Source: Entomomonas sp. E2T0 (GTDB lineage: Bacteria; Pseudomonadota; Gammaproteobacteria; Pseudomonadales; Pseudomonadaceae). From it: a stretch of DNA of 64,000 nucleotides. Within the stretch, counting starts at the first letter, position 1, and the number at the start of each line of letters is the position of its first letter. Location of the stretch: positions 2,604,001 through 2,668,000 of the forward strand of contig NZ_CP094972.1 in the NCBI RefSeq assembly GCF_025985425.1, read 5' to 3'. A program made the position numbers and the translations under genes. Below, piece by piece: positions 4,103 to 7,639 of this stretch. The notes below the pieces were generated by a model that saw only the letters and a program-made list of their open reading frames with translations, was not told the origin of the DNA and did not search any database.

Positions 4103-5548
4103 ATGACTAATAAAACGATTTTAACTTCAGCTAGCGGTGCTCCTGTAGCTGACAATCAAAACTCTCGTACTGCTGGCAAGCGTGGTCCAGTGACTTTAGA
4201 CGACTTCCATTTAGTTGAGAAATTAGCTCACTTTAACCGTGAAAATATTCCTGAAAGACGTGTTCATGCTAAGGGTTCAGGCGCTCATGGTATATTTACA
4301 GTGACTAACGATATCACTAAATATACTTTTGCAAAACTATTCTCAAAAGTAGGCAAACAAACACCAATGTTTGCTCGCTTCTCTACGGTAGGTGGTGAAC
4401 GTGGTTCTGCCGATACTGCACGTGATCCACGCGGTTTCGCGTTAAAATTCTATACTGAAGAAGGTAACTTTGATTTAGTGGGTAATAACACACCTGTATT
4501 TTTTATTCGTGATGCTATTAAATTCCCTGACTTTATTCATACTCAAAAACGTGACCCAAAAACTAACTTAAAATGCCCTCGTATGATGTGGGACTTCTGG
4601 TCACTTTCTCCTGAGTCATTACATCAAGTAACTATTTTATTCTCAGATCGTGGTATTCCTGATGGTTATCGTCATATGCATGGTTTTGGTAGTCATACAT
4701 ATAGCTTAATTAACCAAGATGGGGTTCGTACTTGGGTTAAATGGCACTTTAGAACTAAACAAGGTATTAAGAACATCCATCCTAAAAAAGCTGAAGAGTT
4801 AGCAGGTACTAATCCAGATTGGGCTCAAGATGATTTATTCCATGCGATTGAGCGTGGAGATTATCCAAAATGGGGGGTTTATATTCAAGTAATGACTGAG
4901 AAACAAGCCAGTGAGCGTACTGAAAACCCATTTGATGTGACTAAAGTGTGGTCACAAAAAGAATTCCCATTAATTGAAGTGGGTGAATTTGAATTAAACC
5001 GTAATCCTGAAAACTACTTTGCTGAAGTAGAACAAGCTGGCTTTGCACCTAGCAACGTTGTGCCTGGCACAGGTTTATCACCTGACAGAATGTTACAAGG
5101 TCGTGTTTTTGCTTATGCTGATGCACAACGTTATCGTATTGGTACTAATTATCAACAATTACCAGTAAATGGGCCTAAATGCCCTTATCATACCTATCAA
5201 CGTGATGGCTCTATGCGTTTTGATGGTAATAGTGGTGGTATGCCAAACTATGAACCTAATAGTTTTGAAGATGCACCTAAACAAACTAATATTAAAGAAC
5301 CTATTTACCCTGAATCTAATTCAGGCCCAGCTTATCAGTATGATCATCGTGAAGATACAGATTACTACAGCCAAGCAGGCGCTTTATTTAGATTAATGAA
5401 TGATGAGCAGAAAGCTTTATTAATTGATAACATTGTTAATTCAATGAGAGGGATTGATGAGACTATTCAACGTCGTCAAATTGAGCATTTCTTGAAAGCT
5501 GATCAGGCTTATGGCGAAGGTGTTGCTAAAGGCTTAGACATTAAATAA
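4103..5548 (+). CDS. katA: Monofunctional heme catalase (small-subunit type)
   Basis: 481 aa catalase that dismutates hydrogen peroxide to water and oxygen. The three active-site landmarks of the family are present at the expected spacing: distal His55 (in [12 protein letters not shown]), Asn128 (in FDLVGNNTP) and the proximal heme-ligand Tyr338 (in [10 protein letters not shown]). The length fits the small-subunit clade, and there is no C-terminal extension or signal peptide, so it should be cytoplasmic. It is a single-gene unit closed by a strong hairpin. The exact paralogue name (katA, katB and so on) cannot be decided from sequence alone. Confidence 0.95.
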
Positions 5549-6050: not shown

Positions 6051-6461
6051 CTAGGCTCCTTTCACTTCCTCTAATAAATTTGGATGTTTATCTAATATTT
6101 TCAATAACTTAACTACAGATACAGGAGGTACAGCCTTACCTGTTTCATACCGTGAAAAAGCGTTTACACCCCCACCAAAAATATCTGCGGCTTCTTGTTG
6201 AGTAAGCTCTAACTTTTTACGAACCCGTATTATAAATTCTGGGTTTATTTCTTTAGCATTTACTTTTTTATTTAAAATGGTTGCTGCATCACTAATTAAT
6301 CGACTAATCTCCATATCATAGATAACTTCATCGCAACCTGTACAATATAAACCTGGTAGTTTTTTGAGGGTTACACTTTCACCTTTATAAGCATAGGTAA
6401 AATCTTTCCTATCCCTGACTAACTTTGCACCACACTCTGGACATTTATTAATAGTCATCAT
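6051..6461 (-). CDS. mqsA: MqsA-type antitoxin / transcriptional repressor, without adjacent mqsR
   Basis: 136 aa two-domain protein. The N-terminal YgiT-type zinc domain has ligands C7, C10, C40 and C43 (CPEC and CTGC). The C-terminal HTH-XRE domain (about 72-136) contains GGGVNAFSRYE, which carries the DNA-reading asparagine and arginine of MqsA (here N100 and R104). Similarity to E. coli MqsA runs over the whole length. A GGGAG ribosome-binding site sits just upstream; ATG at 6458 is an alternative start. In E. coli mqsR precedes mqsA in one operon. Here the 168 bases upstream cannot encode MqsR (about 98 aa) and the next gene is unrelated, so this is an orphan antitoxin or a repurposed regulator. 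Confidence 0.88.
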   Translation of the reverse strand: MMTINKCPECGAKLVRDRKDFTYAYKGESVTLKKLPGLYCTGCDEVIYDMEISRLISDAATILNKKVNAKEINPEFIIRVRKKLELTQQEAADIFGGGVNAFSRYETGKAVPPVSVVKLLKILDKHPNLLEEVKGA

Positions 6462-6530
6462 CGCTCCCTCTTTATATTACTTTGTATAACCATAACAAAC
6501 TTACTAAATATTAATACTTTACGACTCATA

Positions 6531-6547
6531 CTAACCTATAAGGTTAG
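6531..6547. promoter_or_regulatory. MqsA operator-like palindrome
   Basis: Perfect inverted repeat CTAACCT-ATA-AGGTTAG, 70 bases upstream of the mqsA start. It matches the AACCT-N3-AGGTT palindrome known to be bound by E. coli MqsA. Around it, on the minus strand, TTGATG and TAGTAT separated by 17 bases could be a promoter whose spacer holds the palindrome, consistent with autorepression. Confidence 0.75.
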
Positions 6548-6629
6548 CAACATCAATTAGTATCATGGTCTAATATAAAGTAAAAAATTCTTTATAATTC
6601 TGATTGTTATTTATTATAACTAAGTAAAA

Positions 6630-7145
6630 TTAATTACAGGTTAATTTTGACCATATTGTCACTATTTGCTTTTCATCTAATTGTAATTTTAATAAATCAA
6701 CAAAGTTGTTTTGGTAATCTCTTAACAGCTGCTTACCATCAGGGATTATCCCCTTTTGTTTACGATTTAACAAACGACAAGGGACAACTTGTTGCACCAT
6801 TTGACGTTGTTGCTTTTGTGTATCTGGGGCGGTATCAATCTGATCATTAACAACCCCTAATACAGTTCCTAATGAATTAGTTTTAGGTACATTATCACTA
6901 CGAATTAAGAAATCATAAAATTGCATATAATTTAATACTGAAAACTTTTCTTTTGTTGTTAGATCTTGCTGTTCTTGCTCTAATAAATTTGACACAGGAT
7001 TGTAGGCTAACAAAGAGGCTTCTAATAAATAATCTTCTTGGGCATGATAAAAACGCCCCTGCTCTATTGCTTGCTGCATTAAAAAGCTATAAGCAACAAC
7101 AATAACCAATGGCACTAGCAAATAATTAATTACTTTCTTTTTCAT
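6630..7145 (-). CDS. Unknown membrane-anchored protein (downstream member of tandem pair)
   Basis: 171 aa. A lysine-rich start and one hydrophobic segment (about residues 6-25) suggest an N-terminal anchor with the rest outside the cytoplasm. I do not recognise a family. The soluble part is helical and glutamine-rich, with a late cysteine pattern (VPCRLLNRK and a final ...SKLTCN). The preceding gene has the same layout and a comparable ending, so the two look like diverged duplicates. Only 2 bases separate them, which implies one transcript. Confidence 0.6.
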   Translation of the reverse strand: MKKKVINYLLVPLVIVVAYSFLMQQAIEQGRFYHAQEDYLLEASLLAYNPVSNLLEQEQQDLTTKEKFSVLNYMQFYDFLIRSDNVPKTNSLGTVLGVVNDQIDTAPDTQKQQRQMVQQVVPCRLLNRKQKGIIPDGKQLLRDYQNNFVDLLKLQLDEKQIVTIWSKLTCN

Positions 7146-7147
7146 GG

Positions 7148-7639
7148 TTATTTAGCCTCACAAGAAAGGTTAAGTATTTGCAACCAATCATTATTAACTG
7201 TCTGTATATATATTGCCTTTAATTGTTCCATATTTTGTTTATTATCTTTAGCATTATCATTAAAAAGTACATCATAATAATCTTTTGTTATGGGGTGTTT
7301 TAAACGATAACGTTGTAAATCACAGAGTAATAACTTATTTTCTTGCTCTTTTATCGCCAGTTCTTTAAAACTAAATAAACGAACAATTCGATTAATATTT
7401 TTACCATTAACAGACCAATCTATTATTTTACTGTTTAAATTAGCTTCTATTAGTGCATCACTAGGTAAATTTGTAGCCTCAATGGTTTTCATTTGATTCC
7501 ATGCTAATTTAGGAGCTTCTAAATAGCGTTGATAATATCTAGCGTTATGAAATCCTTTCAATAACATATAAAAACTACCTGGAATCACTATTACACAAAT
7601 AAAAGCAATAATTACCCGTTTTATAATTACTTTAGACAT
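7148..7639 (-). CDS. Unknown membrane-anchored protein (upstream member of tandem pair)
   Basis: 163 aa. A basic start is followed by one hydrophobic segment (about residues 8-27) and a helical, probably periplasmic domain. Length, single anchor, the LLCDLQRYR segment and a cysteine three residues before the end parallel the downstream protein, suggesting a duplication. I do not recognise the family. It is the first gene of a two-gene operon whose upstream region is shared with the divergent small ORF and ampE. Confidence 0.6.
   Translation of the reverse strand: MSKVIIKRVIIAFICVIVIPGSFYMLLKGFHNARYYQRYLEAPKLAWNQMKTIEATNLPSDALIEANLNSKIIDWSVNGKNINRIVRLFSFKELAIKEQENKLLLCDLQRYRLKHPITKDYYDVLFNDNAKDNKQNMEQLKAIYIQTVNNDWLQILNLSCEAK

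Follow-up and report, generated by a model that had tools for sequence, protein, structure and literature searches.

A toxin-less mqsA gene behind an MqsA operator-like palindrome in Entomomonas sp. E2T0

The mqsA gene and its upstream region

The stretch of DNA analyzed here (64,000 nucleotides, hereafter the window) comes from Entomomonas sp. E2T0 (CP094972), an isolate from Zophobas morio larvae (PMC9872594). Its genome of 3,325,929 bases is made up of two contigs, of which the larger measures 3,315,933 bases, and the organism is a beetle-gut bacterium. On the reverse strand of the window, at 6051..6461, lies mqsA, which encodes an orphan antitoxin-family protein of 136 amino acids with an N-terminal CxxC...CxxC zinc domain and a C-terminal HTH-XRE domain. 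A first-pass annotation of this DNA had described an MqsA protein retaining its zinc cysteines and the DNA-reading residues N100 and R104, and this description holds. In profile searches the whole protein matches PF15731 (MqsA_antitoxin) with 172.9 bits against a cut-off of 30, and TIGR03830 with 132.7 bits against a cut-off of 61.8, while its residues 5-133 match E. coli MqsA (PDB 3gn5) with 131.1 bits. Cysteines C7, C10, C40 and C43 align to E. coli C3, C6, C37 and C40, N100 and R104 align to N97 and R101, which we take to be the DNA-reading residues of the E. coli protein, and the GNFSRYE pattern of the HTH-XRE domain is identical to that of E. coli at all seven columns compared. According to the available text of PMC2791442, E. 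coli MqsA contacts MqsR through its N-domain and DNA through its C-domain, where residues 98-105 are predicted to do the DNA binding.

Upstream of the gene, at 6531-6547, stands the 17-bp perfect palindrome CTAACCTATAAGGTTAG (CTAACCT-ATA-AGGTTAG), the end of which is 69 bases from the mqsA ATG. It matches exactly the MqsA motif published as 5'-AACCT(N)3AGGTT-3' (PMC4894380, available text), just as the first-pass annotation, which placed an MqsA site some 70 bases upstream, had it. Within the 64-kb window AACCTN3AGGTT occurs only here. The genome-wide search that the same annotation had proposed found four exact copies in 3.33 Mb, as compared to three for a reversed control pattern, so that the motif as such is not enriched; the other three copies are all intragenic and none is promoter-placed. 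The density of these three predicts about 1.4e-4 exact sites for the 168-bp gap upstream of mqsA, and what is improbable about the palindrome is its location, not its genomic frequency.

The palindrome appears to be embedded in a promoter. A putative -35 hexamer, TTGATG (6551..6556, reverse strand), starts 10 nt ahead of TAACCT, and a putative -10 hexamer, TAGTAT (6528..6533, reverse strand; TAATAT in G002, a second Entomomonas genome), overlaps the operator end at a spacer of 17. This pair scores 8/12 and lies under the threshold of a consensus promoter scan, which called two other sites versus 4.3 in shuffles. The register is nevertheless not peculiar to this locus: among 19 operator sites with at most one mismatch, drawn from 18 of the 30 mqsA loci described below, TTG stands at exactly -10 from the operator in 12, E2T0 and G002 included, although the nominal binomial value of 2.6e-17 is far too small because the loci are related. 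It is common to toxin-bearing loci, for example those of G077a, G256 and G460a, which resemble the window locus in operator, promoter-like hexamers and register and differ from it in that an intact mqsR separates their operator from mqsA. In sequence terms, what lies upstream of the E2T0 gene looks like an autoregulatory promoter-operator, its palindrome and hexamers being spaced as at toxin loci.

The distance from the operator to the first cysteine codon is 330-388 nt (mostly about 330) at loci with full-length mqsR, 103 nt in the window and 128 nt in G002. In place of mqsR there is a leader (6462..6525, reverse strand) with no recognisable mqsR remnant. A short frame in this leader ends in a TGA overlapping the mqsA ATG, as the mqsR stop does at partnered loci; we judged this overlap uninformative because every start written ATGA yields it. 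Since the operator sits in the promoter register of toxin-bearing loci, mqsR was probably lost from its place between promoter and mqsA, and the locus looks like an mqsRA promoter from which mqsR is gone.

The missing toxin and its loss at other mqsA loci

The first-pass annotation had found no mqsR adjacent to mqsA and had suggested a genome-wide search for homologues. Both its observation and the outcome of the search agree: the MqsR profile PF15723 has no match in the complete E2T0 genome, nor in any of the four genus genomes, and a custom MqsR profile built on 14 mqsR frames finds nothing credible in the 700 nt upstream of mqsA (best i-E 0.66). PF15723 does detect mqsR in 13 of 144 relatives, the 13 on which its sensitivity rests and one of which is matched over 39 profile positions. 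Among the 369 class genomes it detects mqsR in 8, with 7 of these matches above cut-off; 14 control genomes gave no match either. The PF15723 result in E2T0 and all four genus genomes leads us to reject a toxin elsewhere in the genome. As a possible refutation the first-pass annotation had named an mqsR that is fused or frameshifted within the upstream 168 bases; the custom profile was used to look for one and found none, and we reject this alternative as well. The E2T0 protein belongs to the MqsA protein family but not to an MqsRA system.

Could one of the neighbors have replaced MqsR? The reverse-strand frames at 6630-7145 and 7148-7639 lie directly upstream, on the flank where one would look for mqsR, and might be an unrecognised new toxin partner of MqsA. 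However, both also occur in G001, a genus genome that lacks mqsA, which makes them unlikely partners; neither has a family match at E 0.001, the operator sits between them and mqsA instead of ahead of them, and at 163 and 171 aa and a dN/dS of 0.14 they evolve like ordinary neighbors. We consider this explanation scarcely credible. Both frames have hydrophobic N-termini, and the pair is kept in G002 and G001.

The absence of the toxin has parallels. We hand-picked 30 mqsA loci, strong and mostly full-length matches from relatives and from the 369-genome class sample, and sorted them by manual reading of profile output: mqsR is intact at 18, broken at 9 (G034b, G006, G013, G044, G042, G070, G078, G374 and G192, of which the single-lesion cases G034b, G013, G044, G042 and G078 could reflect sequencing errors) and without trace at 3 (E2T0, G002 and G115), the absence in E2T0 and G002 probably representing one event. 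With mqsR broken or absent at 12 of 30 loci, toxin loss is recurrent. Left out of the 30 were fragments and weak matches, among them G003, G047, G062, G020, G035 and G131 and, from the class sample, G206, G210, G411, G338, G234, G246 and G144. We also omitted one of the two G115 copies, the second, as well as G138, in which mqsR is frameshifted and mqsA cut off. No intact mqsR without mqsA was seen, the frameshifted gene of G138 being the sole candidate.

In an MqsA tree of 31 rows the Entomomonas pair and E. coli MqsA belong to one clade of 16 rows (support 100/98), and the broken and absent loci are scattered, with 8 of 28 inner branches open and a single origin per label still compatible. 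The zinc cysteine set of G454a and G454b is incomplete as read. Orphaning is not general, given the near-equal counts of the two genes in 5426 E. coli genomes, where mqsR was found in 2290 and mqsA in 2291 (at 80% coverage, 2264 and 2290).

The individual loci differ in what remains. In G006 (L058) the open frame of mqsR is cut to 61 aa, and in G044 (L015) it continues into mqsA to form a single frame of 236 aa. G192 (L112, L153), with an operator, the last 26 mqsR codons and mqsA, shows another stage of toxin loss in which the operator is retained, here for a distant MqsA; its L112 locus is like that of E2T0 in the lost mqsR and in an operator 105 nt before the first cysteine codon (103 in E2T0), and unlike it in the distant MqsA, the mqsR remnant kept and a second, imperfect operator copy. 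G115 has two copies (L059, L060) of a region in which an orphan MqsA, lacking an operator, lies next to mobile-element-like genes, so that operator retention is not universal. Upstream of mqsR at L022, L023, L024 and L025 (G070, G086, G078 and G031), the related operator TACCCT-N3-AGGGTA replaces TAACCT-N3-AGGTTA; these sites go with a divergent MqsA subgroup, a pattern that would fit a joint change of operator and protein.

Conservation and selection within the genus

The orphan gene is not restricted to E2T0. G002, which we take to be E. asaccharolytica (and G001 E. moraniae), has an mqsA 89% identical, with the same palindrome and between the same neighbors, one extra acetyltransferase-like gene being inserted on the far side. 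The promoter-operator block (6526..6563, reverse strand) is identical at 37 of 38 positions in an ungapped comparison, whereas from +20 towards mqsA only 10 of 40 ungapped positions match, the leader containing indels. Between the two species mqsA has a dN/dS of 0.077 at a dS of 0.88, with 0.080 for the zinc domain and 0.073 for the DNA-binding part, figures from one species pair in which the dS of the C-terminal half (1.12) is near saturation. Values for the neighbors are 0.053 for catalase and 0.070 for the AmpE-like gene, both close to that of mqsA, 0.113 for DUF4354, 0.142 and 0.144 for ORF171 and ORF163, and 0.009 for the dcd-like gene.

These values bear on two other explanations. First, mqsA could be a decaying remnant, devoid of function and persisting by chance after a recent toxin loss. 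Toxin loss is common enough, as counted above, and within the genus mqsA is absent from G001 and present only as a fragment in G003. Against this, the frame has stayed open in two species across the divergence given, the zinc and DNA-reading residues are intact, the operator block is nearly unchanged, and purifying selection is equal on both MqsA domains, which is why the gene is not a decaying remnant by this measure; the selection test already disfavors the explanation, and we hold it to be very unlikely. The G003 fragment (L057, about 4900-5075) corresponds to the C-terminal part of an MqsA, with 70% identity, and has a tRNA-Leu-like gene nearby; no toxin was seen.

Second, the orphan might serve as an anti-addiction antitoxin that neutralizes MqsR brought in by plasmids or mobile elements, its zinc domain being selected for toxin binding. 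This is one of the roles suggested for orphan antitoxins as a class (PMC10790755, available text), and it would account for a toxin-binding domain constrained like the DNA-binding one, although this constraint could be purely structural. In addition, 95 plasmid records hold a relative of the E2T0 MqsA, several with MqsR annotated alongside. At the 13 interface positions the E2T0 protein agrees with that of G034a, a relative whose mqsR is intact, in six letters, but with E. coli MqsA in only 4, and three of the eight N-domain changes between E2T0 and G002 fall on the 13 interface columns out of 65 (Fisher p 0.19, not significant), contrary to the trend that strong selection on binding would produce. 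Given further that none of the four genus genomes has MqsR, we regard an anti-addiction role as unlikely.

A probable stand-alone autorepressor and other operator-like sites

The explanation that we consider probable is that the locus is an mqsRA operon minus its toxin gene, with MqsA autorepressed from the retained promoter and kept as a stand-alone DNA-binding protein. An ancestral operon would have lost mqsR, leaving mqsA and a promoter with the operator between -35 and -10. MqsA would then be made alone, from a promoter carrying its own predicted operator; an MqsA dimer on the palindrome would exclude RNA polymerase and hold the MqsA level low and steady, and selection would keep mqsA, its product most probably working as a small DNA-binding protein on its own. 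It is from sequence that we infer the descent by mqsR loss, the binding, the repression and any action in trans, and the arrangement suggests self-regulation of MqsA. Of the two options left by the first-pass annotation, a domesticated regulator is thus the better supported, by conservation of gene and operator in a second species and by purifying selection; the other, a toxin located elsewhere, was not found.

Comparison with E. coli MqsRA indicates how such a locus might behave. The likeness to E. coli MqsA (YgiT; PDB 3gn5 and 3o9x) extends over the whole length of the protein, the zinc cysteines, the HTH and the AACCT(N)3AGGTT site. In E. coli, in contrast to E2T0, mqsR is present; there are two palindromes (PMC4894380, available text) and only one here; and mqsA is driven by two mqsR-internal promoters, and MqsR was shown to alleviate MqsA binding (both PMC6918082, available text). 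With mqsR gone, its internal promoters, impossible in the window locus, would be gone as well, and the operator-bearing promoter would be the only one remaining; with no MqsR to remove MqsA from DNA, plain negative autoregulation would result. It is conceivable, albeit rather unlikely, that the zinc domain, freed from the toxin, has taken on a new ligand or sensing role, which would make MqsA a self-repressed one-component regulator in Entomomonas. If so, the recurrent loci with operator and mqsA and a lost mqsR would be repeated starts on that path.

Orphan type II antitoxins are widely reported, and roles as regulators or in anti-addiction have been proposed for them (PMC12654330 and PMC10790755, available texts). 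The window locus shares with them the lack of a toxin and differs from those surveyed there in being documented with operator, promoter register, selection on both domains and two species. Within openly licensed literature we found no report of an Entomomonas antitoxin and, in titles and abstract openings, none of a toxin-less MqsA/YgiT. What is new here is the orphan with its operator in a second species, the selection on both domains, the promoter register, the recurrent toxin loss and the finding that E2T0 has no second exact N3 operator in a promoter position. Two points are in dispute, namely whether an antitoxin that has lost its toxin turns into an ordinary regulator, and whether MqsA has targets beyond its own promoter, csgD, cspD and rpoS not being MqsA-regulated according to PMC6918082 as opposed to PMC4894380 (available texts). 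A natural toxin-less MqsA with intact operator in two species makes both questions testable free of toxin effects.

As for such targets, the contexts of the exact and one-mismatch N3 sites of the E2T0 genome reveal no wider regulon of the N3 motif. With spacers of N2 to N4 there are 16 exact sites in E2T0, 23 in G002, 12 in G001 and 9 in G003, the contexts covered being 13 of the 16 (all except 195807, 443847 and 2633168), part of those in G002, 4 of the 12 in G001 and none in G003. Among them, the N2-spaced AACCTNNAGGTT at G000:C1:727997-728008 and 458889-458900 lies near gene starts and is conserved in G002. One conserved N2 site, at an rlmH-mrdA-like junction, is 25 nt before the start (14 in G002); the second precedes a transporter-like gene by 228 nt (by 215 in G002) and reads as part of a terminator stem. 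Both count against a purely local role of MqsA and must be explained away. One-mismatch N3 sites number 19 versus 11 in the control for E2T0, and 17 versus 7 for G002. The contexts of all 19, once read, proved mostly intragenic or after stops; the others include a site 92 nt before a 467-aa gene (with no G002 counterpart in the list), one that overlaps the end of a gene and precedes a thymidylate-synthase-like start by 18 nt, one located 19 nt ahead of an uncertain frame of 85 aa and, in both E2T0 and G002, one on the start codon of an endonuclease-I-like gene.
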